Source of the DNA: a virus
DNA: 49,640 nt
Virus record (IMG/VR): IMGVR_UViG_3300042507_006513
Coordinates: 1 to 49,640 of that record
Reading direction: 5' to 3' (one strand)
The position numbers were made by a program, and so were the translations under genes. The notes beneath the pieces were generated by a model, which was given only the letters and a program-made list of their open reading frames with translations, was not told the origin of the DNA and ran no database searches. Below are positions 29,837 through 48,688 of the stretch, one piece after another. Position 1 is the first letter of the stretch. Every line of letters begins with the position of its first letter.

Positions 29837-30340
29837 ATGAGTTTATCATTTTGTAATTTTGAGGATACCGGTAAAATATTTCGTGATAAAAAAATTTATA
29901 AATGCTCGTATTGTGGATCTCAATTAGCTTTAGAAGATCCTACAATTAATATCATATGTTTTAAAAAACATAATGAAGTAATGACACAAATTGAAAACGA
30001 AATATTACCTAAACAACATAAAGTTTTAAATCTTCATGCTGAATCAGAAGCACAATTTAAAGCATTGGTCTCTCAACAAGTAGATCTCGAAAGACAACCA
30101 ATCCCAGATATGCAGAACATGCCCACACCAACAGAACCATCTGATATTATGTGCAGCAAAGAACAGATAGATGAAAGATTAGATATTTGTCATAAGTGCG
30201 AACATTTTAAAGATAGTTCTTGCTTATTGTGTGGGTGTGTAGTTGTTAGAGATAAAAACTTTAATAATAAACTAGCACATAAGAGACACGCCTGTCCAAT
30301 CAATAAGTGGGGTCCTATTATAGATAGTCCTAGTAACTAA
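29837..30340 (+). CDS. Zinc-ribbon protein at the end of the late operon
   Basis: 167 residues with an AGGA ribosome site 8 nt before ATG. There are two metal-site candidates: YKCSYCGSQL at residues about 20-30, and a C-terminal array CHKCEHF-x-CLLCGC...CPINKW (residues about 114-159). The second matches a small zinc-knuckle pattern common in phage structural regions (C-x2-C, C-x2-C-x-C, CP-x2-KW). The middle is a Glu/Gln-rich helix. It follows the cysteine-rich giant directly, so it may help assemble it or be a virion part (inference). Its end overlaps the convergent gene by 11 nt. Confidence 0.6.
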   Translation: MSLSFCNFEDTGKIFRDKKIYKCSYCGSQLALEDPTINIICFKKHNEVMTQIENEILPKQHKVLNLHAESEAQFKALVSQQVDLERQPIPDMQNMPTPTEPSDIMCSKEQIDERLDICHKCEHFKDSSCLLCGCVVVRDKNFNNKLAHKRHACPINKWGPIIDSPSN

Positions 30341-31349
30341 ATCTTGTTACTTCTTGTACGCTATTACCTATTATGGCAACTACATTAAAAGTTTCTATAT
30401 GGTCTCCGTTTTTCACCCTAACTAAAACAGGTACTTGTCTATTTCCTGTCCAAGATCTGAAAAAATGAATTCCCACCATAAAAGAACCCCTAGGATAGGA
30501 TTTATGTGGCCAAAATATATTTTCTACTGGTTGATTTACTAAAGCAGTATTATTGGCATTCATATCCACGTCCAGCATACCACCACCGGTACCAATTCGT
30601 CGTGTCCAATTAATTATATCTAAATGACCATTAGTATTTACTATCACATGTAAATCTATATCATCTATAGTGTCCCAGGCTATAGATATTTGAATGTCTC
30701 CTGTTTGAGCACCAGCCTCCGTTAGTCTTTGGGAGATTCCAGTTCCTGCTCTGTTTATAGGTCCAGAGCGACCACGAAACATATTAGCAGTTTTATTTTG
30801 TGCCAATAGTCCAGCAGAGGTTGTTTTGATTAGATCCTCTAAAACATTGGTTTGTGTTTCTTGCGCCGGCGCGTCTGTTTCTTTATCGATACTTGCCGTC
30901 AAAGAACTATTGACAATAGCAGTTAGACTTTCTATGGGAATACTTTCAGATAATAATTTTCGATTATCTATATTCTCTGGATTATCAAGACTGATGGTTT
31001 CTAAATCAACAGCGGTGTTGTTTATAGCCTCTACTATAATAGAAGACGATTCTATAGGATCGTGGTTTTCTGGTACAGATTCAGCAGAAAAGCTTGATAT
31101 ATCTACTATAGTAGCTTCTAAATTTGGCTCGATAAGATCTTCGCTGGAACTAAAAGATAAACTAACAAGAATGGGCTTATCTGTAACAGGAATTTCATAT
31201 ATTAAAGACAAAAACAATAAGAAAAAAGTATGAAAAACCAAACTGGTTATAAAAGAATGTAATTCTATTTTTTCTTCTTTTGTAAATTGTCGATTTTCTG
31301 TTACTTTTTCTTTTTGTTGTTTTCTGTTTCTTGTTGCTGAGGAGCCCAT
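30330..31349 (-). CDS. Membrane-anchored protein with planctomycete-type C-terminal domain
   Basis: 339 residues from ATG 31349, preferred over an in-frame TTG at 31376 because AAAGG lies 9 nt upstream. A Lys/Arg-rich N-terminus is followed by one membrane segment (SLVFHTFFLLFLSLIY, residues about 35-50), an acidic Ser/Ile-rich linker and a C-terminal domain of about 125 residues. That domain contains SIAWDTIDDIDLHVI, GTGGGMLDVDMNAN and PVENIFWPHKSYPRGSFMVG. From memory this DLHV / GG-x-LDxDxN / PVENIxWP signature is frequent in Planctomycetota proteins and related to the YfaP/DUF2135 group; the N-terminal layout is also planctomycete-like. Probably host-derived and placed at the cell surface or envelope; its role in infection is unknown. 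It overlaps the upstream zinc-ribbon gene by 49 nt and the convergent late gene by 11 nt. Confidence 0.6.
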   Translation of the reverse strand: MGSSATRNRKQQKEKVTENRQFTKEEKIELHSFITSLVFHTFFLLFLSLIYEIPVTDKPILVSLSFSSSEDLIEPNLEATIVDISSFSAESVPENHDPIESSSIIVEAINNTAVDLETISLDNPENIDNRKLLSESIPIESLTAIVNSSLTASIDKETDAPAQETQTNVLEDLIKTTSAGLLAQNKTANMFRGRSGPINRAGTGISQRLTEAGAQTGDIQISIAWDTIDDIDLHVIVNTNGHLDIINWTRRIGTGGGMLDVDMNANNTALVNQPVENIFWPHKSYPRGSFMVGIHFFRSWTGNRQVPVLVRVKNGDHIETFNVVAIIGNSVQEVTRFSY

Positions 31350-31651
31350 TTGTGCCAACCTTTGTTTGGTAACCAATTGCCTTCATCGTCCTTTCTTTTT
31401 GGAAACAAAGTTCCACCTTTTTTGTGTTGTCCAAATGCGAGTAGTGCTCCGCAATCAACACATCTTAATTCATAATAGTCGTTGCCTTCTACATTCCTAA
31501 CCACAAACCGAAGATTATTACTACCACATAGTCCACATTTTTCTTCAGCAAAAATTTCTTGGATGATAGCTAATTCTTTAAAAATTTCTTTTTGACCGGC
31601 GCCTTCAAGTTCGAATTCTAATTTATCGCCTACTTTATATTTTACTTTCAT
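31301..31651 (-). CDS. Small zinc-ribbon protein
   Basis: 116 residues; ATG 31651 has GGAAA 7 nt upstream, and the previous stop lies 2 nt before the start. The N-terminus is helical and charged. A four-cysteine ribbon follows: CGLCGS at about 39-44 and CVDCGALLAFGQ at about 64-75. Next comes a basic stretch KGGTLFPKRKD and a Trp-containing tail with a Lys-rich end. From memory such proteins sit beside phage recombination or SSB-like genes. A nucleic-acid-binding accessory of recombination or replication is the likeliest role (inference). The putative promoter at 31762-31790 would transcribe this gene. Confidence 0.55.
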   Translation of the reverse strand: MKVKYKVGDKLEFELEGAGQKEIFKELAIIQEIFAEEKCGLCGSNNLRFVVRNVEGNDYYELRCVDCGALLAFGQHKKGGTLFPKRKDDEGNWLPNKGWHKWAPQQQETENNKKKK

Positions 31652-31653
31652 GG

Positions 31654-32373
31654 CTATTTCCAGGTGTCCTGGTATCCTATTAGTTGCTCTGGTATATTGG
31701 ACATATTTTGCTGATAGTGGTTCAGTTTTTGAACGGACGAAACAGCGTGTTCATGCTTAATATTATATATCGAATCATAGGTAATGTCAAGCTCATCAAA
31801 AAGTTTGGTTACATTAATATTTAATCTTTTAGCAATAACATCTATAAAATTAATTTGATTAGAGCTAATTTTTGTAACCGTTAATCCGTCAACATTGTCT
31901 TCTACAGATTCTGCCAGTTCTTCAGCCGCAACAACTTTCTTAAGTCTTAATGCTCTTCTCAAAGCTCTTCCTTCTGCTCTGGTTTCTGCAACGGCGACGG
32001 GATGATTACGGAAAATCTTATCACAATTGCCCCAATACACATCCGCTGAGCCGTCTACAGTCAATAGATTTAAACCTTCTGGGTCGGCTATACCAGGATT
32101 TAAACGAAATGTTAGAGAATGACAAACCGTTGCTCTTTTTTCGTTCTCTGGAGACGGAGATTGAACGATTTGAGAGGTTGATGATATTATTCTAGCCTCC
32201 ATAGCCAGCTCAAATACTCGTCTTAAACCATCGGTTGTAGGATTTCCCATTATTTTTTCATCATCGGATAAAAGACCTAGTACATAATCTGTCCACTCCA
32301 AATCAGTAATCTTTGGATTAGAAGTAGTTTTCATATCTTGTGTTTCTATTTCCGACTTATCCTTTTTAGCCAT
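31654..32373 (-). CDS. Probable single-strand annealing recombination protein
   Basis: 239 residues with a strong AGAGGA ribosome site before ATG 32373. Residues about 80-120 form a beta-rich segment (RATVCHSLTFRL ... VDGSADVYWGNC). It is followed by the helix AVAETRAEGRALRRALRL (residues 127-144) and AAEELAES. This VAETRAEGRALR-KALRL type of helix occurs in phage Rad52/ERF-like annealing proteins (family knowledge; I cannot run a profile search). The C-terminal 75 residues form a small helical domain ending IPEQLIGYQDTWK. It lies between a nuclease and a zinc-ribbon gene, with SSB further upstream, which fits a recombination module. A perfect sigma70-type promoter is embedded in its 3' third. 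Confidence 0.55.
   Translation of the reverse strand: MAKKDKSEIETQDMKTTSNPKITDLEWTDYVLGLLSDDEKIMGNPTTDGLRRVFELAMEARIISSTSQIVQSPSPENEKRATVCHSLTFRLNPGIADPEGLNLLTVDGSADVYWGNCDKIFRNHPVAVAETRAEGRALRRALRLKKVVAAEELAESVEDNVDGLTVTKISSNQINFIDVIAKRLNINVTKLFDELDITYDSIYNIKHEHAVSSVQKLNHYQQNMSNIPEQLIGYQDTWK
31762..31790 (-). promoter_or_regulatory. Consensus sigma70-type promoter inside the recombinase gene
   Basis: On the - strand, TTGACA (31785-31790), a 17-nt spacer and TATAAT (31762-31767) match the sigma70 consensus at all 12 positions. Transcription would start near 31755, about 100 nt upstream of the zinc-ribbon gene, and would cover it and the planctomycete-like gene. The site lies in coding sequence, so amino-acid constraint could have produced it by chance. 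Confidence 0.55.
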
Positions 32374-32374
32374 T

Positions 32375-33157
32375 TTAATCCTCTATTTCTAGAATGTTCG
32401 AATTAGCGAAAGCCTGTTTATTATCTAATAGTAGTTTTAAAGACATATATACTTGATGTGCTCTAGCATTTGAAAAATCATGTATCTGTTTTATTCTTAT
32501 TAATTTTAGTCCTTTTCCAATGATCAAACCAGATTTTTTTCTATCATACTTTTGATTTTTTGCTAACGATTCTTCTCCCCAAACTGGAAGAAAATGAGAA
32601 GGTCCATCGATCTCTATCGCAATATTCATAGTAGGCAGAAACAGGTCAAGTTGCAACTTGGTGTTTGATAAAATCTGTTCTTTGTGAAATTCAACTTTAT
32701 AGTTATCATTAATTAGACATTTTAATAAATAGTGTTCTAGTTTAGATCCTGTTTTGCTTGTTGTTCGAACCGCTTGATTAGCAGCAATTAGTCTTTCTTG
32801 TTTTTCATCTTCGCTAAGGCTATTCCATAAGTGTTTTGCTTTTTCTTTTCTCGTTTTTTTGGTTCCATCATCCATATTCTCCCACTGTTGAATAATGCTT
32901 TGTCCAATTTTTGTTTTTGTGGATTCAGATCTTTTTGTTCCTTTGGTTGGATGTTTGTGTTTTCCTGTTTTTAATGCGTTTTTTTGTGCTAGGCTTTTAT
33001 CTCTAATTTGTATTTTAAATTTAATAGCGTCTCTTCTAATTTTATTAGGATATGTATGATATAGCTCAGCAATTTCTTGAAAGCTTTTATTTTCTTGCAA
33101 ATAAAGCTTTTGTAATAATTTTTTTTTGCCACTTTCGTCATATTCGTTGTATAACAT
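32375..33157 (-). CDS. NUMOD3/Vsr-like PD-(D/E)XK endonuclease
   Basis: 260 residues; AAGAGG lies 7 nt before ATG 33157, inside the upstream gene (20-nt overlap). An N-terminal helix-turn-helix-like part (FQEIAELYHTYPNKIRRDAI) is followed by a NUMOD3-like basic motif (KGTKRSESTKTKIGQSI, residues about 73-89). The C-terminal nuclease core has an early Glu (GSKLEHYLLKCL), LQLDLFLPTMNIAIEIDGPS (Asp and Glu of the fold) and a Lys-rich YDRKKSGLIIGKGLKLIRIK. This DNA-binding-plus-Vsr-like layout is typical of free-standing homing endonucleases and of phage DNA-repair nucleases. Its place between the glycan cluster and the recombinase would suit either. Catalytic residues appear intact. Confidence 0.6.
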   Translation of the reverse strand: MLYNEYDESGKKKLLQKLYLQENKSFQEIAELYHTYPNKIRRDAIKFKIQIRDKSLAQKNALKTGKHKHPTKGTKRSESTKTKIGQSIIQQWENMDDGTKKTRKEKAKHLWNSLSEDEKQERLIAANQAVRTTSKTGSKLEHYLLKCLINDNYKVEFHKEQILSNTKLQLDLFLPTMNIAIEIDGPSHFLPVWGEESLAKNQKYDRKKSGLIIGKGLKLIRIKQIHDFSNARAHQVYMSLKLLLDNKQAFANSNILEIED

Positions 33158-33605
33158 TATTAACCTCTTTATAATTAAATTTATCTATTTTGGCTAGAGG
33201 TGGTTTCCAGCAAATATCGAGCAACTTAGCAATATCATCATTTCCTGCTAATGTTTCAAATTTATTATTTAAGTATATATTATGCCACATCATATACGGA
33301 ACATTTGAACGCTCCGCCCACTCAGGTGTTTGCATATATAAAATCTGTTTATCTGGACCAGGAAAAGTTTGAGTCAAAAACGCGCTTTGTGTATCAAACA
33401 AGAATAAAATACCTCTAAAGTATTTTGCATGATTGGCTGATAATATATAATATTTTTTATTTGAATCCAGAAGCTGGAAATAATTATTAAATATTACAAT
33501 ATGATCATATGGTCTCAATTCACATAGTTTATTAATATTCTCAACAATATATCTGTGTTCCTCAATTTGTTGATTAATATTTGGTAGATAAAATCCTATA
33601 TTCAT
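33138..33605 (-). CDS. Hypothetical protein of the glycan cluster
   Basis: 155 residues with an AGGAC ribosome site before ATG 33605. I do not recognise a family with certainty. The N-terminal 60 residues (NIGFYLPNINQQIEEHR ... YDHIVIFNNY) look like a Rossmann-type beta-alpha-beta start seen in glycosyltransferase-like proteins. The middle has FRGILFLFDTQSA and PEWAERSNVPYMMWHNIYL. The short length would allow only one GT-B half. It is the last gene of the glycan cluster and overlaps the nuclease gene by 20 nt. Confidence 0.4.
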   Translation of the reverse strand: MNIGFYLPNINQQIEEHRYIVENINKLCELRPYDHIVIFNNYFQLLDSNKKYYILSANHAKYFRGILFLFDTQSAFLTQTFPGPDKQILYMQTPEWAERSNVPYMMWHNIYLNNKFETLAGNDDIAKLLDICWKPPLAKIDKFNYKEVNNVIQRI

Positions 33606-33606
33606 A

Positions 33607-34383
33607 TTATAGTCCTAGGTATGGTATAAGTTGTTCTTTCATAAAATTAGAAACACGATATTTTTCATGTGTTTTTGTAAACTGATTGGATATCTGATTA
33701 TGCTTGATTTGTTCAATAAAATCATGGTTTCCGTCTAACCATAAAGTATTAGTAGCGGCTGTTTCTAATTCAAATTCACGATCAATATCAACAAAATAAG
33801 AATAAGTATTGAGCACATAATTTAAATCCTGTTCGTTATATATACCTATATTTTGCGGATGTTTAAATTCTGGATTATTAAATAATACTATTGGATATTC
33901 ACATTCATTTGGATATATGTAGGACTCTAGTATGGTTTTATTTTTTGTATTATCATTAGATAAAGAGACTGCAACTTTATTATTTTTTATAATATCTGGG
34001 ATCATATAGTATATGGTATCATCATATAAATAATCAAATGTCAGAGCCTTGCTGTTGAATTGTGTTGTATTGTTTTTGACAACGAAAGAGCAGTTTGTTT
34101 GTGAAAGATAAGAAACAAGATTGGGATTTTCTATGATAAGATCTATATATAATATAATTTTATGTTTATTATGATAATTTTCCACATAGTTATGAATTTC
34201 TTGAGTATACTCTATAAAAGGATACAACAAAATATCTGGTTTAAAAACATAAGTAGTATCAAATATATTATTATGTAGATTGCTAATCTGTACAGAAATA
34301 GATTCGCTCTGTAGTAGAGATAAGTGCCTTATTAAAGACCTGTACTGTCTATTGCCGTTGGAATGTACTAATATTTTTTGCAT
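33607..34383 (-). CDS. Glycosyltransferase-like half-domain protein
   Basis: 258 residues. The N-terminus KILVHSNGNRQYRSLIRHLSLL is a Rossmann-type opening. It is followed by FKPDILLYPFIEY, resembling the phrase 'KPDIV...' in GT-B N-terminal domains, and by strands such as KIILYIDLII and CSFVVKNN. The C-terminal part (GIYNEQDLNYVLNTYSYFVDIDREFELETAATNTLWLDG) resembles the end of GT-B proteins, but no nucleotide-sugar motif (E-x7-E) is clear. It is probably a degenerate or divergent transferase. A start 8 nt after the upstream stop, with AAGAG before it, keeps it in the operon. Confidence 0.4.
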   Translation of the reverse strand: MQKILVHSNGNRQYRSLIRHLSLLQSESISVQISNLHNNIFDTTYVFKPDILLYPFIEYTQEIHNYVENYHNKHKIILYIDLIIENPNLVSYLSQTNCSFVVKNNTTQFNSKALTFDYLYDDTIYYMIPDIIKNNKVAVSLSNDNTKNKTILESYIYPNECEYPIVLFNNPEFKHPQNIGIYNEQDLNYVLNTYSYFVDIDREFELETAATNTLWLDGNHDFIEQIKHNQISNQFTKTHEKYRVSNFMKEQLIPYLGL

Positions 34384-34391
34384 ATAAACTC

Positions 34392-35096
34392 TTATCTAAT
34401 TTTATGTTTATCTTTTAATCCAGTAATTTTAATAATATTACTTGTTTTATTATTATATATAGCTTTAATATTTAATAGTTGTTTTTCAATTGTGGTATTG
34501 ATAATCTCAAATAAAAACATATTATCATAATACAAAAGATCCATCTGTGAATACATTTTTTTAAGATCATCTATAGTAAAATAAACAGCTTCCGCCCAAT
34601 ATTTATCTCCTAAATCATAAAACAAATGTTGAACATAATTGTCTTCATCTATAAAACAACCAATATTATATCTGGGTGTTTTGATTTTTTTATCAATCAA
34701 TATCCATGATTCTTTTGTCGAATAGGTTGGCAGTTTTTTTATAATACTGTTACTATTAAAGAATAAAACACCGTTTATGTTGTGATTGTTTTGTAGAATT
34801 TTTGTTAATGCCAGTTTAAAAGCATAGCCTTGATTTTTTTCTATATACTCTATATTGCTTATAGTATTATCTTCTGTTATTAGATTATATTCTTTAATTT
34901 TTTTAATAAGCTTATCTTCTTCAAAGCCCAATAGAACAAAGATATTTTTACTATGTATTGCTCCTTTTATATATTTAACACAATAATATATAAGCTCCTT
35001 GGTTTTGTTGCTCGATTTCAATAGGCCAATAGATCCATAAGATTTCATGCCTTTTGTTATTTCGTGTGCAAAAATACAACAAGCTATTTTTGTCAT
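34392..35096 (-). CDS. Sugar-nucleotidyltransferase-like protein
   Basis: 234 residues; ATG overlaps the upstream TGA (ATGA). The order of elements fits a GT-A / NTP-transferase fold: SYGSIGLLKSSNKTKELIYY at residues about 18-38 (position of the GxGTR/LP loop and 'ELI' helix), NIFVLLGFEEDKLIKKIKEY, IEYIEKNQGYAFKLALTKIL (the 'N-x-G-x-A-x-L' step) and GVLFFNSNSII where such enzymes usually carry a catalytic GD-x-x-F. The Gly-rich NTP loop is poorly kept and the expected Asp is replaced by Asn. It may be inactive or may bind sugar nucleotides without catalysis (inference). Confidence 0.45.
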   Translation of the reverse strand: MTKIACCIFAHEITKGMKSYGSIGLLKSSNKTKELIYYCVKYIKGAIHSKNIFVLLGFEEDKLIKKIKEYNLITEDNTISNIEYIEKNQGYAFKLALTKILQNNHNINGVLFFNSNSIIKKLPTYSTKESWILIDKKIKTPRYNIGCFIDEDNYVQHLFYDLGDKYWAEAVYFTIDDLKKMYSQMDLLYYDNMFLFEIINTTIEKQLLNIKAIYNNKTSNIIKITGLKDKHKIR

Positions 35097-35506
35097 AGTG
35101 TTTTTGTTACAGTAATTACTGTATATATGTGTTCAATGTAATTTTTTTGTACTACTATATTTGGAAAAGATGAAAAAGCTTCTACGATCAGAGATTCTGT
35201 CCATAAAGAATTTATATCTTTAATAATATCCGATATTTTTTTTGCATCTATCTCATTTTTCAGAATACGACTGGATAGCATTGTAGCATTAATACATTTA
35301 AATGTAGCCGTACCATCAAAGGCTAGTTTTGACAAAATAGCCTTAAACACATCTAGTCTTTGCGCAAATTCTATCTTATCAAGACATTCACAAATAATAT
35401 TATTAACAAATCCATTAATGACATTATTTAGGTCTTGAATTTTTATATTTTGGTAGCCTTCTATAGATCCGCTATCGTCTATGATTAAATTAATATTCCT
35501 ATTCAT
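35093..35506 (-). CDS. Truncated methyltransferase-like protein
   Basis: 137 residues, with ATGA overlaps at both ends. The segment NIICECLDKIEFAQRLDVFKAILSKLAFDGTATFKCI (residues about 36-72) resembles the second half of class I SAM methyltransferases, which read '...LDH...R..FL..i...LkpGG...i'. The Gly-rich SAM-binding motif I that should precede it is missing. The N-terminus NRNINLIIDDSGSIEG contains only a degenerate strand. Either this is a relic or a partner protein uses the half-fold. Alternatives are open; confidence in the fold is low. Confidence 0.35.
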   Translation of the reverse strand: MNRNINLIIDDSGSIEGYQNIKIQDLNNVINGFVNNIICECLDKIEFAQRLDVFKAILSKLAFDGTATFKCINATMLSSRILKNEIDAKKISDIIKDINSLWTESLIVEAFSSFPNIVVQKNYIEHIYTVITVTKTL

Positions 35507-36405
35507 TTGGTATATACCTCGTGGCTAATATCGTTAATAATTTGTTTTAGAGTTTGTTTAAATGGTTCAAAGGGATATTTTTCTTTTACATATTCAACTT
35601 GTTCTTTAACGTCCGGCTTAGAAGAAGACAATTCTTTAATCGTTGATATAATATTATCATTAAGATCAATATGATTTATAAAAGGCGATATTACCGGATT
35701 ATTTTTTGTTGTAATGGTTCTACATCCGCAACATAAAGCCGACATTAGATTAACTAGATAATTATCTGATATGTCTAAACATATTTTATGTCGGTTAAAA
35801 AGATAGTTAAGTGTTTCTAAATTAATTTTTGTATTTATTAATGTGCAAGACATTCCGTTTTGTTCTAGCGCAAACTTTAATTGTTGTGTTACTGATCCGT
35901 AATCAAATATAGCAATGTCTTTTCTTTGTTCGAAGTCAGATGATGACTGAAAATGTTCTACAGGTATTCCAATTTTTGTTAGAATAGATTTATGATTAGA
36001 CTTAAAAGACTGGAATGAGTTTTCATTAAGATATAATTTAGTATGATTATTTAATTTTTGCTGTATAATATGTTTATCTTCTTTTTTGTAGGCTTTAACT
36101 TGATCTATTATAAATAGAATAGGAATGTGCATACCAGCAGATATAGTATCATTGATATGTTTTTCAATATTATGAGTCATTAAAAAATGGTAATTATATA
36201 ATCCAATATGATTATTTGGTAGATTAATTACATTATCAACATTAGTAGCATAAGTATTATTTTCTAAGATAAAATAATTGTCATCTGTTAAATATAAAAA
36301 ATTATCCAATAAACTATTCTTAGGCTCGTACACAATATTTTTTTGTAATACTTTTGTTGATGTCGTACGAAATACCGTGTTGTCTATCATGAAGCTTAAC
36401 TGCAT
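35503..36405 (-). CDS. Divergent GT-B glycosyltransferase-like protein
   Basis: 300 residues. The best clue is the C-terminal half: RKDIAIFDYGSVTQQLKFAL, HKICLDISDNYLVNLMSALCCGCRTITTKNN and FINHIDL (residues about 165-250). It follows the GT-B pattern in which an 'E-A-x-A-x-G-x-P-V' helix binds the nucleotide sugar; here the Glu is replaced by Ser/Ala (LMSALCCG), so activity is doubtful. The N-terminal half has no clear donor motif. It overlaps the upstream transferase by 10 nt and the next gene by an ATGA. Confidence 0.45.
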   Translation of the reverse strand: MQLSFMIDNTVFRTTSTKVLQKNIVYEPKNSLLDNFLYLTDDNYFILENNTYATNVDNVINLPNNHIGLYNYHFLMTHNIEKHINDTISAGMHIPILFIIDQVKAYKKEDKHIIQQKLNNHTKLYLNENSFQSFKSNHKSILTKIGIPVEHFQSSSDFEQRKDIAIFDYGSVTQQLKFALEQNGMSCTLINTKINLETLNYLFNRHKICLDISDNYLVNLMSALCCGCRTITTKNNPVISPFINHIDLNDNIISTIKELSSSKPDVKEQVEYVKEKYPFEPFKQTLKQIINDISHEVYTK

Positions 36406-37535
36406 AATTGTTGTCCTACGTTCGAATAGGAATATTGATTAATTTGATTTGAACCAAAGTTCTGTTTTTCCTGGTACATTTTTCTATCGTTCTTGTACAT
36501 ATTATAAACCTTTTGCATGGTTTCTATAAGACTACTGATTATTGGAGTTCTCCATGAGTATTTTGCATTGAATAAATCGTAGTCTTCTGGTAGTGGTGGC
36601 TTACCAAGAACCACTGGCGAATTTTCTGATTTAACAATAAATCCACCCTTTTCTCCTCCAACTAAATAATCTAAGCCAGTATTTTGTAATACAATTGGTG
36701 TTTTGCCAAGATACGATGCTATCAAAGTTTCTTGATCAAAATTAGAACCGCTATTAATATTAACAAAACAATCACAACTATTATGTATACCAATGATTGT
36801 ATCTTGATTAAAATTATCTGTAAAAACTATTTCATTTTTAAATACTTTATTGGTATGTAAGCTACTTTTAATCTGTTGTGCAAGTTTTTCTATATTGTTT
36901 TTTATGGTAGATGATTGGTTTGAAGCATCAGAACTTGGAGCTATAATTAAAGACACCCTATCTAATTCCGAAAAAGCTAAATGAAAAGCAGTAATTAATA
37001 AGTGCAAATTAGATCGCTCATCATGATTAGATCTAGAATAAAACTTAAAAGATGAATCTATGGCAGAAGGAAATTTTATCAAGTTAGATTTTTGCAATGG
37101 TGGTATTTTTTCTAAATCCATGGGTTTTGGTATAACTTTTACGGGCTTGGTTATACCACCATTAGTTAGAGCTTTTTTTTCTGGTTCTGTAGACACATAA
37201 ATTTCATCTAGTCTATTAAGTATTAAATTGTTATATACTGACTCGCCTTTACTAAATTCAACGTTAACAATTCCGATATTTTTCTTTGCTTTTTGACTAT
37301 TATGAAAAGAAGAGGTCAGACCGTACTGTAAAAGAACGTCATATTCATCGTATGTTGAGTGTTCGCATTTTAAAATGTCATTATCAATATTGGTTTCCAC
37401 CATATTCGTATAGTATATTGGTCTAGTAGACAAAGCTATATTTGAATTTGTTAACATAGCTTTTATATAGTCTCTAGCTTCACGACCCCAAGAATCTTGT
37501 TGACGATAGGTTCCTATAAATAATACTTTTTTCAT
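36396..37535 (-). CDS. GT-B glycosyltransferase (family 4/1-like)
   Basis: 379 residues. The N-terminus KKVLFIGTYRQQDSWGREAR is a typical GT-B opening with Gly loop. The middle has VKVIPKPMDLEKIPP and FKFYSRSNHDERSNLHLLITAF, where GT4 enzymes keep 'vg.....KN...li.Af'. The donor-binding region is HNSCDCFVNINSGSNFDQETLIASYLGKTPIVLQ (residues about 250-283), with Glu in QETLIA and Gly-Lys-Thr-Pro in place of G-x-P. It is coupled to the 560-aa transferase upstream by an ATGA overlap. The substrate is unknown; virion glycan, host surface or modified DNA are all possible. Confidence 0.6.
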   Translation of the reverse strand: MKKVLFIGTYRQQDSWGREARDYIKAMLTNSNIALSTRPIYYTNMVETNIDNDILKCEHSTYDEYDVLLQYGLTSSFHNSQKAKKNIGIVNVEFSKGESVYNNLILNRLDEIYVSTEPEKKALTNGGITKPVKVIPKPMDLEKIPPLQKSNLIKFPSAIDSSFKFYSRSNHDERSNLHLLITAFHLAFSELDRVSLIIAPSSDASNQSSTIKNNIEKLAQQIKSSLHTNKVFKNEIVFTDNFNQDTIIGIHNSCDCFVNINSGSNFDQETLIASYLGKTPIVLQNTGLDYLVGGEKGGFIVKSENSPVVLGKPPLPEDYDLFNAKYSWRTPIISSLIETMQKVYNMYKNDRKMYQEKQNFGSNQINQYSYSNVGQQLCS

Positions 37536-39214
37536 TTTAAATTCTCTTTCATAGCTGCATAGCTAATAAAATCTTCTTTAGAAATTTTATCTTCATTAGC
37601 TAAAGCTGTCATAGCTATATTATGATTTTTTATCAAATTATTAACAGTATTAATAACATGTTCTAGATTGTACGGTTGTGTTTGTATACCATTGATAGTA
37701 AATCCATAAACACTATCTTTAATCATATTTAGTAACATGGTTGAGGTCATTAGTGGATGATTACCCATTTTACGAGACACAATAGACATAATCTGTTCTG
37801 ACGGAGCAAGATCTTTAAATTGATCCAGTTCTTGAGGATTGATTTCCGCTATTTGTGGTAAAATCTGATCCCACTTTCCTTGAAGATTAGATAGTTTAAC
37901 TGAGTCTAAATACTTTTCCCATTTCTTAGCAATATCATCCCAGTTGTATCTTGCTTCTGTCAATTTGCGGGTCTCATGTCTTTTTTGTTCTTGTAAAAAT
38001 TCTGGTAATTCTATAAAGTTTTTTAATATTTCTAACAACGACTCATTATCAGGATAGACTCTAATAGCTTTTGTTTCTAGTTCTCTAAAAAATTGATTAA
38101 CTTTTATTGGATATGCTTTTAAATATTGTACAATATCTTCCATAGCGCTATAGTTAACAGAAGCTATGGGAACACCAGCAGCACCAGCTTCTACTTGGGG
38201 CATACCAAACCCTTCACAAATGGCATATTGAGTATAAATATCCATAACATTATATATAGTATTTAGTTCTTGTTGACTAATACCATTACTAACATTTGGC
38301 ATACTCATAGACATTTGTCCGCATCGGGGGCATAATGCTAATGGATGCTGATAGAGAGAAGGCTTATAGAATTTGCAGTTTTTGCAAGAATACGTGAATA
38401 GGACCTTATTTCCAATCTCGTATTCTTTAAGAAAAAGAGGAAGATCCCATCCAGCATCCGGATAGCTTGTGTGTAGATAAAGAAAAGTTTTATCGGCTTT
38501 GGGATGATTAGTCTCTTTTAGGTACTTAATAAATTCTTTGAGAGCAACAAAAAGTTCTGGTATGAGTTTGCGTTTTTGGTTTCTCATCACCGAACCTATA
38601 ACAAAGGCTTCTGGATCGATACCAAAAAATTGTCTTAGTTGTTGTCTGGATTCTTTGGGTAAATATTGAAAGTTTTGTAGAGACACACCCGGAGATGTGG
38701 TGTCTATATATTTAATAGAATTATTACTCTGACGAAGAAGCGTATCTCTTCCAAAGTCAGAATATGTAAAAATAGCATCGGTATGAACAAACGTATCGAT
38801 CCATTCTTCTTGTTGAGGAGCAGAGTCAACCGTTGGCATTAGGATCCAATGAAAATATGGTCTTAAGGGAGAAAACTGTTGATAAGCACTCATCCAGTAG
38901 TCTCTAACATCTATAACAATATCTGGCTTAAAGTCAATTAGAACCCTCTCAAATCTCCACTTACCAAACTGATTTTCCATCGAGCTATTATATTCTTGAC
39001 TGCGAGGATCATTTCCTTCTACAGCATTAGCATAGTATTTCCAGTCTATCTCGATATCTTTTGGATCATTAACTTTACCATAACAGGCAAATTCTGCGAT
39101 TTCATATTTGCCAGTTTGATGTAATCTAGACAGAATCTCTTTAGTATATGTTCCAAATCCAGAACTAAGAAAACTAGCTTCAGAAACCATTAATACTTTA
39201 AGTTTTTTACTCAT
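37532..39214 (-). CDS. GT4-like glycosyltransferase with inserted zinc ribbon
   Basis: 560 residues from ATG 39214 (MSKKLKVLMVSEASF). An in-frame start 23 codons upstream at 39283 is rejected because it lies inside the ssb terminator hairpin and adds a non-homologous leader. The N-terminal GT-B domain has SSGFGTYTKEILSRLH and FKPDIVIDVRDYW. The C-terminal domain has FVIGSVMRNQKRKLIPELF and AICEGFGMPQVEAGAAGVPIASV (residues about 331-353), the nucleotide-sugar site with EGFG and E-A-x-A-x-G-P. Between them CKNC...CPRCGQ (about 280-298) forms a zinc ribbon. From memory this full arrangement is a recurring phage glycosyltransferase type. A helical C-terminal domain follows. It heads the glycan cluster. 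Confidence 0.7.
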   Translation of the reverse strand: MSKKLKVLMVSEASFLSSGFGTYTKEILSRLHQTGKYEIAEFACYGKVNDPKDIEIDWKYYANAVEGNDPRSQEYNSSMENQFGKWRFERVLIDFKPDIVIDVRDYWMSAYQQFSPLRPYFHWILMPTVDSAPQQEEWIDTFVHTDAIFTYSDFGRDTLLRQSNNSIKYIDTTSPGVSLQNFQYLPKESRQQLRQFFGIDPEAFVIGSVMRNQKRKLIPELFVALKEFIKYLKETNHPKADKTFLYLHTSYPDAGWDLPLFLKEYEIGNKVLFTYSCKNCKFYKPSLYQHPLALCPRCGQMSMSMPNVSNGISQQELNTIYNVMDIYTQYAICEGFGMPQVEAGAAGVPIASVNYSAMEDIVQYLKAYPIKVNQFFRELETKAIRVYPDNESLLEILKNFIELPEFLQEQKRHETRKLTEARYNWDDIAKKWEKYLDSVKLSNLQGKWDQILPQIAEINPQELDQFKDLAPSEQIMSIVSRKMGNHPLMTSTMLLNMIKDSVYGFTINGIQTQPYNLEHVINTVNNLIKNHNIAMTALANEDKISKEDFISYAAMKENLK

Positions 39215-39236
39215 TATAATCTTTATATTAGAAGAA

Positions 39237-39277
39237 ATTATCACAGGTGGCCTTATAGGAAGACCACCCGTGATAAT
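39237..39277 (-). terminator. Intrinsic terminator hairpin after ssb
   Basis: Arms 39237-39254 and 39260-39277 form an 18-bp stem with a 5-nt loop, 8 nt after the ssb stop. In - strand RNA all 18 pairs form, two of them G-U. In + strand RNA the same two positions are A-C mismatches, so the fold was selected for leftward transcripts. A U-rich tail (UUCUUCU) follows. The next gene starts 22 nt beyond. Confidence 0.75.
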
Positions 39278-39285
39278 CACCATTA

Positions 39286-39651
39286 TTAGAACGCTACAGG
39301 CTGACTTTCCTCTGCCTTGCTTGATAGCTTGGTTATCTTTGAAAAGTTATTAACTCTAACCTTCAAAGAATTATGCTTAACTCCATCCTTCTCCCATGAA
39401 TCATTTCTGAGAGATCCTTCGACCATCACCAGATCACCCTTCTTGAATGAACGACCAATAATCTCAGCACCAGAATCCCATGCTTCACATGGAACAAAGG
39501 TTGTTATCTTATCCTTTTCTCCATTTGCCTTTGTATATTCGCGCGAAACAGCAATAGTAAAGTTGACCACCGAAGTGCTCTTACCATTAGTGTTGACACT
39601 ACGAACTTCTGGATCACGAGCTAGATTACCGCGTAATATATTTATATTCAT
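39286..39651 (-). CDS. ssb: Single-stranded DNA-binding protein
   Basis: 121 residues with the OB-fold of bacterial/phage SSB: NINILRGNLARDPEVRSV, then VVNFTIAVSREY (about 28-39), TTFVPCEAWDSGAEIIGRSF (about 50-69) and KKGDLVMVEGSLRNDSWEKD. The C-terminal tail is short and ends PVAF rather than the usual acidic DDDIPF tip, so partner recruitment may differ. It coats ssDNA in replication and recombination. The start is fixed by AGGAG 6-7 nt before ATG 39651 and a leader of about 38 nt after the predicted transcription start. It has its own promoter and terminator while its neighbours are overlapping genes, so it is likely made in high amounts from a separate transcript. Confidence 0.92.
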   Translation of the reverse strand: MNINILRGNLARDPEVRSVNTNGKSTSVVNFTIAVSREYTKANGEKDKITTFVPCEAWDSGAEIIGRSFKKGDLVMVEGSLRNDSWEKDGVKHNSLKVRVNNFSKITKLSSKAEESQPVAF

Positions 39652-39696
39652 ACTGATCTCCTATTGTTAGTTACAAACCAAAACCAAACACAATAT

Positions 39697-39725
39697 ATAA
39701 TACCATAGCTGAGACAAAATGTCAA
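39697..39725 (-). promoter_or_regulatory. Sigma70-type promoter of ssb
   Basis: On the - strand, TTGACA (39720-39725), a 17-nt spacer and TATTAT (39697-39702) match at 11 of 12 positions. The -35 box contains the TGA stop of the upstream polymerase gene; the rest is intergenic. The start would be near 39690, leaving a leader of about 38 nt with an AGGAG ribosome site. Confidence 0.7.
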
Positions 39726-41347
39726 GTCCTTGGTATATAAGCCTTTTCAACAATCAAGCTGTCGCCTGTGTTGTTTTTTTTACCTTTGACAATAATTACA
39801 TTATTATCAAATAAAATATTTCGATGTGTTTTATATGCGTCAGGAAAAAAGATTACACTATCAATACATCCATAACTATCAGATATTGAGACAAACGCCA
39901 TTTCTGAACCAGGACTTTTTCCTGTTTTGGTTTTGGTTACACTGATACTTTCAATTTCTCCACATACAATTATATTATCCTTATTAAGAGTTGTTTTAAA
40001 TTCTTTACAATTACAGTTAGTCATTGTAATATCATACATATCTACTTTGGAGCAAGTGATGCTACACCCCAATACCTCTTCTTCTGCATCAGATATCCAC
40101 TCTGGATTGTCGTCCATAGAATACGGAGGAGAAAGAATTGCATGTAGAAAACTATTTAAAACATCTAGTCTTTTTTTTGTGATGCGTTCTTTATTTTTTA
40201 ATAGGCTAATAATATCATATAAATTGAGCGTTAAATCTATTTTAGAACTTATATAATCTAATTCTGTTTTTGTAAGAGAACTAGCGATATCATATTCAAA
40301 CATCATACTGCTTCTGGTCTTTTTTAAGAAAGATAATCCTCCGCTTTTTATTAAAGCTTTAGCAGACATAGAGTTAATTTTTAATAAAACACCAAAAAGT
40401 ATTTGCGGCCAAGACATTGTATTAAGATCTATATTATTATTTTGAACAATATCAGTTAGTTTCTTAAATACAGAATCCCCGAAACCCTTGATATCTGTTA
40501 AACCAAAATGTATACAATTATTTTTTAGAATAAAAAATCTGTTAAGATTTCTTAAGTCCGGGACGCAAACGGATATATCCATTTCACTAGCGTTTTGTAC
40601 TAATTCTTTAATTTCGGATTTCGGATCTATTTTGTCTTTAGCAAATCTCAGATATGAAGCAAAAAATATTTTAGGAAAATGAGCTTTAGCAAAAGCAGAG
40701 AGGTAAGCATTAACGGCATAGGATACCGCATGGCTCTTATTAAAAGAGTATCTTTGACTTTTTTCTATCCAGCTAAAAATTTCTTCGGATTGTTTGTCAT
40801 CTACAATATTAAGCTTTTTGGCGCCTTGTATAAATTTTTGTTTTAATTTAGACATCTCTTCTGGCTTCTTTTTACCGATGGCTTTGCGAAGATTATCGGC
40901 TTCTTGAAGATCGAATCCGGCTATAGTTTTAGCAATTTCCATAGCCTGTTCTTGATAAATCATTTCTCCATATGTTTTTTCTAATATTGATTCTAAACAC
41001 TTATGATAATAATCTATAGATTCCTGTCCATTCTTTTTGTCAATATAGTGATTGCTTACACTTTTACCATCTCTAATAGCTTCTAAGCATCCCGGTCTTA
41101 AGATACTAATTAAAGCCGATAGTTGTTCTATATTTGTTGGCTTTAATTTTTTTGCCATTGATCTACCTAGGCGACTTTCCAATTGAAAGCAGCCCTTAGT
41201 ATTGCCATCAGAAATCAGATCCCAGGTTTTATGGCAATCAAAATTGATATCGTGATTAATAGGATCAAAATCTATTAATGGTTGATCTTTATTTTCGCCA
41301 ATGACACTAAATGAACATCCACAAGAATACTTAAACTGTTTACTCAT
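39722..41347 (-). CDS. dnaE: DNA polymerase III alpha, C-terminal fragment
   Basis: 541 residues, the second half of a split C-family polymerase. It opens with about 35 residues not found in normal DnaE (KYSCGCSFSVIGENKDQPLI). It then enters the family at FDCHKTWDLISDGNTKGCFQ, corresponding to 'TYxLLxxGxTxGVFQLES'. Fingers motifs follow: LRPGCLEAIRDG, YGEMIYQEQAMEIA, ADNLRKAIGKKKPEEM and RYSFNKSHAVSYA (residues about 197-210). The last 90 residues form an OB-like domain (IIVCGEIESISVTKTKTGK). The PHP and catalytic-aspartate parts are in 42212-44092. It is coupled by ATGA to the exonuclease gene. No intein residues are seen. Confidence 0.85.
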   Translation of the reverse strand: MSKQFKYSCGCSFSVIGENKDQPLIDFDPINHDINFDCHKTWDLISDGNTKGCFQLESRLGRSMAKKLKPTNIEQLSALISILRPGCLEAIRDGKSVSNHYIDKKNGQESIDYYHKCLESILEKTYGEMIYQEQAMEIAKTIAGFDLQEADNLRKAIGKKKPEEMSKLKQKFIQGAKKLNIVDDKQSEEIFSWIEKSQRYSFNKSHAVSYAVNAYLSAFAKAHFPKIFFASYLRFAKDKIDPKSEIKELVQNASEMDISVCVPDLRNLNRFFILKNNCIHFGLTDIKGFGDSVFKKLTDIVQNNNIDLNTMSWPQILFGVLLKINSMSAKALIKSGGLSFLKKTRSSMMFEYDIASSLTKTELDYISSKIDLTLNLYDIISLLKNKERITKKRLDVLNSFLHAILSPPYSMDDNPEWISDAEEEVLGCSITCSKVDMYDITMTNCNCKEFKTTLNKDNIIVCGEIESISVTKTKTGKSPGSEMAFVSISDSYGCIDSVIFFPDAYKTHRNILFDNNVIIVKGKKNNTGDSLIVEKAYIPRT

Positions 41348-42036
41348 TTTTGATTAAAAGAATCCTTAAATTTTACTTTAGACCCCAAACTACGATGCAG
41401 CTTCATGAATCGAATCAAAACCTCAGCACAATCCTTAACATCTTTTAGAGCATCGTGCGCTCCCTCTTTGGATATTCCTAAATAATCTCTAAGATTATCC
41501 ATAGAATAACTTTTTAGATCATTATTGTGCTCAAACCAATAAAATACTAGATTCATTACGTCTATAACATCTCTATTAAAAAATATATTGCTACATCTCT
41601 CTTTATCGATATTTCCATATTTCTTGCTTAGTCTGTCTATAATTTTAAGATCGAATCTATGAATATTATAGCCAGCAGCGATAGGTGCGCTAAATGCACT
41701 TTTTTTACTTGATCTACTATGATATTTAAGTAAATATTCTGTAAACATTTTCCATGATTGTTGTTGTGGGGGATACTTCTTCCACAAATCTAAAACATCT
41801 TGTTTTGCACAGCCCTTTACTTTCGCATGAAAGTCTAGAATATCTGTTTGGTATTCATAGCTATCATTATTGGATAAAACTTCTGGTTTAAAGTTTATAT
41901 TGAATTCCGAGTCTGGAACGACCTCCAGAGAAATTGGGTCAATGATTATTGCAGCAATTTGTACTGGGCTACACTCTGTTGGATCGGATCCATCTGTTTC
42001 AAAGTCAAAAACACAAATCTTATTATAGTTAATCAT
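41344..42036 (-). CDS. DnaQ-like 3'-5' exonuclease (proofreading)
   Basis: 230 residues of the DEDDh exonuclease family. Exo I is VFDFETDGSDP (Asp11, Glu13), Exo II is GYNIHRFDLKII (residues about 118-129), and Exo III is AHDALKDVKDCAEVL with His and Asp four to five apart (about 192-206). All catalytic positions are present. Phage C-family polymerases usually get proofreading from such a separate epsilon-type subunit, or from the PHP domain. Its position between the two halves of alpha, with ATGA overlaps on both sides, suggests a stoichiometric complex. A long insert (about 50-110) between Exo I and Exo II may mediate contacts (inference). Confidence 0.85.
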   Translation of the reverse strand: MINYNKICVFDFETDGSDPTECSPVQIAAIIIDPISLEVVPDSEFNINFKPEVLSNNDSYEYQTDILDFHAKVKGCAKQDVLDLWKKYPPQQQSWKMFTEYLLKYHSRSSKKSAFSAPIAAGYNIHRFDLKIIDRLSKKYGNIDKERCSNIFFNRDVIDVMNLVFYWFEHNNDLKSYSMDNLRDYLGISKEGAHDALKDVKDCAEVLIRFMKLHRSLGSKVKFKDSFNQK

Positions 42037-42209
42037 GAATTTTCTACTACATTAACCTCTGTTATAGGAACTACCATAATTTTTTCATTAGTTGATTTAT
42101 TAATAGCGTTAAGAACCTTGCAGCAACTAACTCTTTCGTCGGTGATACGTTCATGTTCTATATTGTCTAGTACAAATTTATCACCAACTTTAAGTTCGTG
42201 AAATTTCAT
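42033..42209 (-). CDS. 58-aa conserved-type small protein
   Basis: The ORF reads MKFHELKVGDKFVLDNIEHE at its start and ends VVPITEVNVVENS, 58 residues. Support: an AGGAG ribosome site (within the end of the upstream polymerase gene) 7 nt before ATG 42209, a 4-nt ATGA overlap with the exonuclease start, and no room for another gene. The opening 'MKF-x-ELKVGDKF' is, from memory, common in tiny phage proteins of unknown role. A compact beta fold is likely. It may be an accessory of the split polymerase (inference). Confidence 0.7.
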   Translation of the reverse strand: MKFHELKVGDKFVLDNIEHERITDERVSCCKVLNAINKSTNEKIMVVPITEVNVVENS

Positions 42210-42211
42210 AT

Positions 42212-44092
42212 TTATGCTCCTGTTTTTAGAAGTTGTTGAATAGTCATAATTTTATCTAACATAGCAACACCTAGAATATCAAACTTAATAATTCCAATAG
42301 ATTCCAAGTCCTGCATCTCCATACCGGCTATCATTTGATCGTTTTTAGAATCATACACCATAGGACATATGTCTTTTAATGGATCGGAACTGATGGCAAT
42401 ACCAGCCGCATGTTTTGATTGATTAGACTTTGTACCCTCTAATCTAATAGCCTGCTCAAAACGCTTGGCAAGTGGACCTTGTAACTCATCATTATCATCA
42501 ATCCAACACCATTCTTTTAGCTTATCCGAATTATTCTCTAGTGACCAGCGTATAATCGATGCTTCTCCTGTTTCTTCTTTCATTTCTTGTAATTCATCGG
42601 CAATCTTTGCTTCATCTGGTATGTGTTTTGTAATTTGGTTCATTTCATCAAAAGAAATATGACCATATACTCTTAAGACATCTTTTAATGCGCCTCTACC
42701 TTTGATAGTATTAAACGTTATCATTTGAGAAACTTTATTATTACCATATTTATCTTTAATATATTGAATAACTTGTTCTCTCTTATCTATTGGAACGTCA
42801 ACATCAATATCTGGCATAGATATGTGATTAGCACTATTACGACCAGCATTATAAAATCTATCAAACATTAGATTATATTTAATAGGATCAATATTAGTAA
42901 TCCCAATAAGATAAGATACTAAACATCCAGCAGCACTTCCTCTTCCGGGACCAGGAAGCCAAGCATGATTTCTAACATGGTTTACAATATCTTGAACAAT
43001 TAAAAAATAACTAGACAAATTAGCGCCCTGTAATACGCTCAATTCATATTTTATACGATCCACATAAATAGACTGATCGTTTTCTGATATATGATTTGCG
43101 ATTTTATTTTTCCATCCATCACGACACAGTTGTCTCAGGTATTCTGCATCTGTGTATCCAGCTGGACAACTAAACGGAGGCAGATGAGGTTTACTAAGAA
43201 TATCATATTCTTCGCACATAGAATCTACATAATTGGTATTCTCTATCTCTTCTGCACTATGTAAATTAGCAATTTCTTCTTGTGATAATATATGAAAATT
43301 ATCTGACATAAAAAATGCGCTTAACGGAACTTCCTGATTGTTAGCTATTTTTCTATTTATTTCTGGAAATGTAGTTTTAAGATTATTACACAATAGTATT
43401 CTTTGATCAACAGCATCGGACTTACGACAATAGTGAGCGTCTGGAGTACAGATAACCTTAGTGTTAGTTATTTTTCCTAGTTGTCTAATGCAATCAGACA
43501 GTTCTACTTGTAGTGGGATATTATCTTTGTCCATTAATTGTGATTCTAAGAAAAAATTATCTTTACCAAAAATATCGTGAAAAGTATTGATATACTGTTT
43601 TCCAATATTACTCCAGTCTCCCACTATTTTATCATTATCAACTAATTTATCTGCTAGAGTAGATCCTAAATGACCACATATGCCAATAATATTACCGTCA
43701 ATAAGATTTTTAAGTCTTTTAAGATCAAGTCTAGGCTTATGATAATAAAACTCAGGACGATTTGATTCGGAAACTATTTGTATTAGATTTTTCCACCCCT
43801 TAAGATTTTTTGCTAATACCAAAAGATGACTAAGAGACTTATTGGTTTTTTCTTGAATACTTGCGTCTTCATTACATATATATAGTTCACAACCCAGAAT
43901 GGGTTTAATACCATTTTTTTTCATTTCGGTATAAAACTTGATAGATCCAGCGATATTACCATGATCTGTTAAAGCACAAGATTTAACATTAATTTCTTTA
44001 CATCGATCTGCGATTTGACTGGGCTTTGATAGACCGTCCAAAAGAGAATACATTGAGTGAACATGTAATGGTATATATGATGGCATGGTCAT
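42212..44092 (-). CDS. dnaE: DNA polymerase III alpha, N-terminal fragment
   Basis: 626 residues with a PHP domain (PLHVHSMYSLLDG at about 8-20, ALTDHGN at 40-46, GCELYI at 67-72, CTPDAHY near 220) and the palm. The palm has GPGRGSAAGCLVSYLIGIT near 375-395, MPDIDVDVPIDKREQ near 422-436 with the two catalytic Asp, and IIKFDILGVAMLDKI near 598-612 with the third. The gene ends right after this helix with TGA codon context KTGA-stop; fingers and tau/OB parts are in 39722-41347. The PHP His/Asp residues look largely kept, so it may retain metal-dependent nuclease activity. ATG 44092 overlaps the previous TGA. Confidence 0.87.
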   Translation of the reverse strand: MTMPSYIPLHVHSMYSLLDGLSKPSQIADRCKEINVKSCALTDHGNIAGSIKFYTEMKKNGIKPILGCELYICNEDASIQEKTNKSLSHLLVLAKNLKGWKNLIQIVSESNRPEFYYHKPRLDLKRLKNLIDGNIIGICGHLGSTLADKLVDNDKIVGDWSNIGKQYINTFHDIFGKDNFFLESQLMDKDNIPLQVELSDCIRQLGKITNTKVICTPDAHYCRKSDAVDQRILLCNNLKTTFPEINRKIANNQEVPLSAFFMSDNFHILSQEEIANLHSAEEIENTNYVDSMCEEYDILSKPHLPPFSCPAGYTDAEYLRQLCRDGWKNKIANHISENDQSIYVDRIKYELSVLQGANLSSYFLIVQDIVNHVRNHAWLPGPGRGSAAGCLVSYLIGITNIDPIKYNLMFDRFYNAGRNSANHISMPDIDVDVPIDKREQVIQYIKDKYGNNKVSQMITFNTIKGRGALKDVLRVYGHISFDEMNQITKHIPDEAKIADELQEMKEETGEASIIRWSLENNSDKLKEWCWIDDNDELQGPLAKRFEQAIRLEGTKSNQSKHAAGIAISSDPLKDICPMVYDSKNDQMIAGMEMQDLESIGIIKFDILGVAMLDKIMTIQQLLKTGA

Positions 44093-45126
44093 GCGCTTCC
44101 TGGTGCTTTGTATTGTCCTACACTATATCCTGCTTTTGTATATTCGTCAACCACCGTATTAAAACCTTTAACATCAATATCATGATGTATTTGTTCACAT
44201 TTTGTCATGAAGCGACCCTTTTGAGTAACTTGATGATCTCTATATTCTATAATCGGTAAATATTCGGTATTCTCAAAAGTTGTTTTTCCAAAGTGACATA
44301 ATTTACCACATTTCCATGATTTATTTTGTTCTGGATTATATGTGTTTTTTATGGTTTCAAATTTATGTCGTAGCATCATTTCAACATCATATATTTGGGG
44401 TCTGTCAAAACACACAGAGAATACTCCGCCGTCGTTAATAAAATTAATAGAAATAATAATGTGTTCTATATCAGGATATAAGTGGTGCGTAGCATAAAAA
44501 TATATCATTAATTGAGCATCTCTATGTAGTTTACTGAGAGTCTTTTCTTCTCCAGTGGCCCAATCTAATCTTCTTCCGGTTTTCCAGTCTATTATTTCAA
44601 TAGTGTTATCGTTTACTTTAGTCATTAAGTCTATGGTTCCTTTGATCGCTAAGTTTCCAGCAATAAAACCATCTGTTGTTTTATAATTATAAGCAGCCCA
44701 ATCTTTTTTTATCTCTATATCAAAATGTTGTTCAGAACTAACTATTTCTCTATTTCTAGGATCAAACATTCCATCGTTATATTCTAAGGCTTTATAAACC
44801 CACTTTCTACAATCTCTAAGATCTAGGCTCGTCCACTCATGATGAGTAAAACGAGATGTATAGTAATCATAAACTTGATCAATGATTTTTTCTAAATCAT
44901 AGTCAGCAATACTTACTTGGTTCATTATATCGTCATAAAAATATGGCCTACCAAATTGAGTATTTAATTTAATTTCTGCAAGTATTTCGAAAACTTTGTG
45001 ACATATTGTTCCTTTATCTGCTTTTTTATTGGACGGTGATTTATGTCCTAAATTATATTCAATAAAGTATTGCATTGGACACATAGAATGTGTACCATAC
45101 GAACTACTGCGAAGATATGTAATTAT
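44089..45126 (-). CDS. RecB/Cas4-like PD-(D/E)XK nuclease, probable ATA start
   Basis: Nuclease core: His in KGTICHKVFEIL, Asp in GTIDLMTKV, Asp-x-Lys in EIIDWKTGRR and the QLMIYFY motif. One N-terminal Cys (MCPMQYF) and C-terminal CGKLC plus a further KC suggest a Cas4/AddB-like Fe-S cluster (inference). The first ATG in frame is 45084 (331 aa), but it has no ribosome site and cuts into the family's opening. The frame is open upstream and encodes ITYLRSSSYGTHSMCPMQYF, as expected for this family. Starting at ATA 45126 (345 aa) gives a 4-nt ATAA overlap with the upstream stop, parallel to the ATGA junctions elsewhere; AAAGGA lies 11 nt upstream. ATT 45129 is an alternative. Role: processing of DNA ends in replication or recombination. 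Confidence 0.72.
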   Translation of the reverse strand: MITYLRSSSYGTHSMCPMQYFIEYNLGHKSPSNKKADKGTICHKVFEILAEIKLNTQFGRPYFYDDIMNQVSIADYDLEKIIDQVYDYYTSRFTHHEWTSLDLRDCRKWVYKALEYNDGMFDPRNREIVSSEQHFDIEIKKDWAAYNYKTTDGFIAGNLAIKGTIDLMTKVNDNTIEIIDWKTGRRLDWATGEEKTLSKLHRDAQLMIYFYATHHLYPDIEHIIISINFINDGGVFSVCFDRPQIYDVEMMLRHKFETIKNTYNPEQNKSWKCGKLCHFGKTTFENTEYLPIIEYRDHQVTQKGRFMTKCEQIHHDIDVKGFNTVVDEYTKAGYSVGQYKAPGSA

Positions 45127-48296: not shown

Positions 48297-48688
48297 CCTG
48301 GGCTCCTAGCGCAACTATTACACTTATATCTACTTGGAGAATCCGACAACATAGACGGATTAACAGAATCTTTTCTTCCACATACTCTACATACTACATT
48401 TATTGGATCAAAAGATCTTCTGTTTCTTGGGGTTGGAGAATGTACAGATAATGCTTGATCTATAGCCCTATCTTCTTGATGTAGTTTAGACTCCATCATC
48501 TCATCGAATCTATTGACGAGGTTTCCAGTTTTATTAACTTGTCTTGGAGAAACAGTTTTAATTATATTCGTTTGTTGTTGAGTGGATTGTGCGGGCTCAT
48601 CATTTGGCTCAGATATAGTATCCTTTGTAAGCATAGCCTGCAACATACTAATCATCTGTTTGATCTGATCTGGAGATAAATTATCCAT
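48293..48688 (-). CDS. Small zinc-ribbon protein next to helicase
   Basis: 131 residues. The N-terminal helix is DNLSPDQIKQMISMLQAML. A disordered Gln/Thr/Asn-rich linker follows (about 25-60), then charged RFDEMMESKLHQEDRAIDQAL. The C-terminal four-cysteine ribbon is CRVCGRK...YKCNSCARS (about 100-128). The family is not recognised by name. Its location directly before dnaB with an ATGA overlap makes a helicase-loading or primosome accessory role plausible (inference only). Confidence 0.55.
   Translation of the reverse strand: MDNLSPDQIKQMISMLQAMLTKDTISEPNDEPAQSTQQQTNIIKTVSPRQVNKTGNLVNRFDEMMESKLHQEDRAIDQALSVHSPTPRNRRSFDPINVVCRVCGRKDSVNPSMLSDSPSRYKCNSCARSPG

Follow-up and report, generated by a model that had tools for sequence, protein, structure and literature searches.

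TonB binds ExbB, and TolA binds TolQ, through the SHLS motif, of which Ser-x3-His is the first half (PMC12215075). Two boxes of these proteins correspond in placement to the one described below: TonB has a D-box (QPISVTMVTPAD) that is similarly placed and contacts ExbD through strand pairing (PMC10907165), and the TolA 'motor box' is found at a comparable position (PMC12204202). SHLS-anchored transducers with a vWA head have been described in Planctomycetes as well; the published ones are encoded beside tolQR-like genes (PMC12204202). The phage protein analyzed here joins a Ser-x3-His (SxxxH) anchor to a DUF2135-type domain. Both the domain and this class of anchor are already known; neither the anchored DUF2135 combination nor a phage-borne example of it was found in the literature searched.

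The DNA analyzed, referred to as the window, is a virus record of 49,640 bases, probably a fragment. The relatives of its polymerase are found on IMG/VR contigs of 5 to 230 kb, so the window is likely part of a large phage. The ORF is present as initially annotated, with an ATG start at 31349 (a TTG at 31376 is a possible alternative), and is the terminal gene of a minus-strand replication operon encoding a polymerase, exonucleases, a primase, a DnaB helicase, and SSB. It overlaps its upstream neighbor by 49 bp and the convergent plus-strand gene by 11 bp (Table 1). The replication operon converges on a structural operon of the plus strand, in which the first large ORF encodes the tape-measure protein. 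Full-length homologues are present in 19 of the 45 related phage records and on 31 phage contigs, every one from the same phage group, and in all 31 phages the gene is flanked by the Zn-ribbon gene on one side and by the convergent Cys-rich gene on the other. With this number of homologues and the constant position, the target is not a chance ORF. The phages that carry it form an undescribed group, which is large-genomed, aquatic, and widespread.

Table 1. Coordinates of the target gene, its protein segments, and the adjoining genes in the window.
Feature	Position	Strand	Evidence
Membrane-anchored DUF2135-type protein, 339 aa	30330..31349	-	ORF, homologues, AF2
N-terminal membrane helix, aa 24-50, basic N-terminus	31200..31280	-	AF2, hydropathy
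Ser36-x3-His40 motif in the membrane helix	31230..31244	-	
KPILVSLSF, aa 58-66, alternating beta-strand-like box	31152..31178	-	
Disordered acidic Ser/Thr-rich linker, aa 67-200	30750..31151	-	pLDDT mostly <50
Nine-strand beta domain, aa 205-339, DUF2135/YfaP-type	30333..30737	-	profile, AF2
Zn-ribbon-like protein, fixed upstream neighbor	31301..31651	-	69-90% identity in target-carrying relatives
Cys-rich protein (weak DUF6171), convergent, fixed neighbor on the other side	29837..30340	+	

Several other features of the window deserve a description. The structural ORFs at 4-29828 (+) are very long, with a tape measure of more than 2950 aa and ORFs of 1511, 1750, and 2688 aa; the last is Cys-rich, and among the long structural ORFs only the tape measure has a PHROGs match. 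Two homing/HNH-type endonuclease-like genes are located at 32375-33157 (-) and 49153-49575 (-). The former is among the best-conserved neighbors (54-67%) and is found in all relatives, which is unusual for a selfish endonuclease. The DnaE-type DNA polymerase III alpha subunit (39722-44092, minus strand) is split into two ORFs, a PHP and palm half (42212-44092) and a finger half (39722-41347); an ORF for an RNase_T exonuclease separates them. The profile runs on without interruption across the junction (615/614), with no extra intein-like sequence there in either half, and the split is kept in all relatives of sufficient length, at identities as low as 50% (L013-L060).

The target protein has one hydrophobic segment only. 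In the AlphaFold model, calculated with 25 homologues, the membrane helix (residues 24-50) is followed by a mostly disordered region up to residue ~200, which includes an acidic linker of ~150 residues, and by a beta domain (residues 219-338) with pLDDT above 90. Folded alone, the C-terminal domain shows nine strands with a mean pLDDT of 95.6. No Pfam family matches the target, including DUF2135 (PF09906) at the curated cut-off; this family is matched by 16 of the 33 aligned domain relatives, the best at 6.5e-7, thus the membership of the target, and its likeness to E. coli YfaP, is by relay only. One homologue, from a Vibrio phage, carries the annotation YfaP. The PDB, searched by sequence and by fold, gave nothing below 0.001 and no significantly similar solved structure, and the viral fold library gave one significant match only, an uncharacterized 713-aa protein of a Cellulophaga phage. 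Single-sequence scans of the viral and genome collections returned no match, and alignments were required.

The membrane helix carries the motif that relates the protein to TonB and TolA. All 24 distinct phage homologues have the serine of SxxxH and 22 have the histidine (Asn in the other two), while the background frequency is 1 in 175 N-terminal hydrophobic segments (taken from ORFs of cellular loci). In respect to the complete SHLS motif, the Ser, the His, and the Leu (His+7) are present in the target and the last Ser is replaced by Tyr. An alternating hydrophobic box starts ~20 residues past the His in the phage members, and most of the anchored planctomycete proteins have such a box as well; in the target its sequence, KPILVSLSF, appears to resemble the TonB D-box and the TolA motor box. 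ExbB and ExbD Pfam families were found in 7/7 planctomycete genomes tested, versus 0/18 phage records. Pfam detects no TonB or TolA C-terminal domain in the relatives, and DUF2135 is found instead.

Since the Ser-x3-His motif together with the strand-like box resembles the motor-docking signature of TonB and TolA, we propose a force-transducer-like protein acting on the ExbBD or TolQR of the host. To the reading of the target as a phage copy of a planctomycete transducer-like envelope protein, which docks on a motor and changes the envelope of the infected cell, we give an even chance. Such a copy of an inner-membrane protein would consist of the SxxxH helix, the strand box, a flexible linker spanning the periplasm, and the DUF2135 head. 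The helix would dock on the ExbB/TolQ-type proton motor of the host as TonB and TolA do, the strand box would pair with ExbD or TolR, and the DUF2135 domain would then engage a partner in the outer envelope. During infection, the transducer of the host may face competition from the phage copy or be replaced by it, which would alter the envelope, and the most likely effect would be that other phages using that envelope route are shut out. This exclusion is our preferred guess for the benefit, although taken by itself it is a rather unlikely one. The complete version, in which a phage lineage possesses its own planctomycete-derived, proton-motor-coupled TonB/TolA-like transducer with a DUF2135 head and blocks or redirects envelope traffic via the host ExbBD or TolQR, is doubtful and is put forward tentatively.

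The same features allow a reading without a motor, in which the SxxxH helix is merely an inherited anchor and the DUF2135 domain has a passive periplasmic role; it might be a shield, adhesin, or scaffold, masking a receptor or stabilizing the envelope in a long infection. Most cellular DUF2135 homologues have other anchors or none, the strand box is a sequence pattern that the AF2 monomer leaves unstructured and without a strand, and no motor gene was found beside the anchored planctomycete genes in the neighborhoods examined, all of which speak for a passive role. A passive anchor, however, needs no such motif, and Ser-x3-His is near-invariant in a protein with an average column identity of 35%. 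We consider the motor-free role possible, with the chances clearly against it.

The cellular relatives of the target were searched with profiles in ~85,000 species genomes, from which 80 loci were kept. The best match (54%) is a protein of a Planctomycetaceae MAG and the second (46%) is one of a Planctomycetia MAG, both anchored and chromosomal; the next best, at 39%, come from several phyla and are without the anchor. The kinship with planctomycete envelope proteins suggested in the initial annotation is thus supported, as the closest cellular relatives share the architecture and, in the trees described below, the phage proteins are placed among them. Four of the 80 loci have the same anchor, all from Planctomycetota: L158, L159, L204, and L212, in the last of which Asn replaces His. 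The SxxxH helix, acidic linker, and DUF2135-type domain align full-length with the planctomycete proteins (L158, L159, L257-L260, L204), which are sister to the phage proteins or nested with them. These relatives, for which no published name was found, are chromosomal genes of GC-rich bacteria with cellular neighbors, whereas the target belongs to a phage operon of 34% GC. L158 is accompanied by an RND pump, an aminosugar-phosphate gene, and a TIM-barrel isomerase, L204 adjoins RecQ, and L212 adjoins TruB (all names at these three loci, except for the isomerase, were assigned by reading). Two further members have PSCyt2/PSD1 and DUF1501 genes as neighbors, with FHA and kinase genes in the vicinity.

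At E<=1e-20, the domain is present in 50 of 398 Planctomycetia genomes, several of them with the SxxxH anchor, and in 8 of the 72 genomes of the nearest planctomycete family. With another profile at the same threshold, a phylum-wide Planctomycetota sample gave 5/392, so the gene is patchy. The Verrucomicrobiota sample contained one matching genome in 289, in which the anchor is not aligned.

Two trees were calculated, one of the domain (119 rows) and one of the full-length proteins with Planctomycetota outgroups. In the domain tree, five Planctomycetota proteins join the phage proteins in a single clade (SH-aLRT 98), and in both trees the target branches with planctomycete proteins and not with the other phage or cellular DUF2135 domains (98 and 99/98). 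In the full-length tree, L158 is located inside the phage group (99/95), and outside it come L257-L259, then L159, and, further out, L204, L260, and L212. The nested position of L158, with 0% of bootstraps explained by only one label change, indicates that at least two transfers of the gene took place between planctomycetes and phages. Sequence comparison thus shows common descent with planctomycete chromosomal genes. The simplest reading is a host-to-phage transfer first, followed by a phage-to-host transfer for L158, with the root, hence the direction of the first transfer, resting on the chosen outgroup and L158 forming a long branch. The target would then have been captured from a planctomycete. 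L158 itself (CAIWZS010000364.1) is a chromosomal gene with 69% GC on a 17.8-kb Planctomycetaceae contig inside the phage clade, and likely represents a phage-to-host transfer.

The opposite direction would make the target an old phage gene, donated several times to planctomycete chromosomes and serving there as a prophage-like immunity gene. The nesting of L158 and the patchiness in the nearest planctomycete family are consistent with such donations. Against them stand the planctomycete proteins that branch outside the phages, the wider distribution of SxxxH-anchored versions in Planctomycetia, and the sister phages with an empty site, and we regard this direction as improbable.

The insertion site (compared at L025:18069-19702 and L312-L315) was inspected in the related records. 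Among those of at least 50 kb, the target is present in 17/17 with a polymerase identity of ~74% or more and in 0/6 with 71% or less. In three of these sister records (<=71%) the site is empty, with the convergent structural-side gene within ~10 bases after the Zn-ribbon gene, as expected for an inserted gene, and in a fourth it is occupied by another gene, of 181 aa. In a 34.8-kb record with 75% polymerase identity, two glycosyltransferase-like genes replace the target. Envelope-related genes may be added at this site, a possible hotspot at the operon boundary. The identity of the target among the relatives is 30-41%, versus 57-90% for the three upstream neighbors, and such faster evolution is as expected at a host interface. 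Capture of a host-type envelope gene at the operon boundary, as first proposed, is still the best reading, and the architecture, the trees, and the empty sister sites agree with it. A lysis function, as an inner-membrane protein of the spanin type, would suit a single N-terminal membrane helix with a periplasmic domain in a phage; the target, however, ends a replication operon and is not in a lysis cassette, and its C-terminal part, a DUF2135 domain that has counterparts on planctomycete chromosomes, is not a coiled coil, hence by position and fold this function is rejected as very improbable.

The initial annotation had suggested the planctomycete link from three C-terminal strings and the single N-terminal membrane segment. 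The strings are in place: DDIDLHV (residues 229-235), GGGMLDVDMN (255-264), and PVENIFWP (274-281). They are not diagnostic alone, because DLH, LDVDMN, and PVEN are conserved as well in phrog_1735, a family of ~670-aa proteins from hundreds of other, unrelated phages. It is the whole architecture, unlike the motifs alone, that points to Planctomycetota. The family phrog_1735 is the best PHROG for the target (1.6e-15), covering profile positions 409-526 of 673 only. The phage collection contained 395 matching records, and those examined among them are explained by phrog_1735; they range over Ackermannviridae, Vequintavirinae, Schitoviridae, and phiCbK-like, Microcystis, and Brevibacillus phages, and the family also includes proteins of Enterobacteriaceae and Caulobacter phages. 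The C-terminal DUF2135-type domain is all that the target has in common with it (roughly 29-36% identity), and phrog_1735 differs by ~400 additional N-terminal residues, the lack of a membrane anchor, a clade of its own in the domain tree (99), apart from the target and the planctomycetes, and, usually, a ~135-aa partner. In nearly all records examined (L001-L012) the ~135-aa gene follows phrog_1735, so that the two form a widespread unit without known role. An ordinary phage DUF2135 domain, truncated or recombined from phrog_1735 and without a planctomycete link, would explain the PHROG match and the shared motifs but, unless the tree is artefactual, is rejected by tree and architecture as extremely improbable.

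The gene was also taken at first as a clue to the host. No spacer link was found: 19.3 kb of the window (30341-49640), searched against the 72 genomes of the nearest planctomycete family, gave no convincing match, only partial ones of 18-47 bases at noise level (best E 0.026). A polymerase search detected no phage contigs in 328 Planctomycetia genomes, and the listed matches are cellular DnaE proteins of 37% identity or less. The neighbor at 31654-32373 has no match in the 72 genomes either, an empty answer which shows little. The composition gives no link, with 30-35% GC in the phage group versus 43-72% around the anchored planctomycete genes. With no spacer-like match, no phage contig, and this GC gap, a planctomycete host is a lead and not a result, and the functions first suggested (surface remodelling, superinfection exclusion, or lysis) are proposals; judged from the sequences, the kinship shows that these phages and planctomycetes have exchanged the gene and is not proof of what the phages infect. 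To our knowledge, few planctomycete phages are described, and no large tailed one of this kind was found in the literature searched. A gene in common with planctomycete chromosomes is therefore a concrete host lead for widespread large aquatic phages.

If the proposed motor docking is correct, the target raises a direct question: do phages seize the envelope motors of the cell? The protein would add a phage-borne member to the class of SxxxH-anchored periplasmic proteins, of which the published kinds found are TonB, TolA, and the vWA transducers. With TonB and TolA it shares a three-part plan in which the membrane helix contains Ser-x3-His and is closely followed by what appears to be a similar beta-strand box (PMC12215075, PMC10907165), but its C-terminal domain is folded differently, its SHLS motif lacks the final Ser, and the phages have no motor genes. 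The vWA force transducers, also found in Planctomycetes, have the same type of anchor, a disordered linker, and a non-TonB C-terminal domain (PMC12204202), whereas the target is borne by a phage and its head is a nine-strand all-beta domain of the DUF2135 type.
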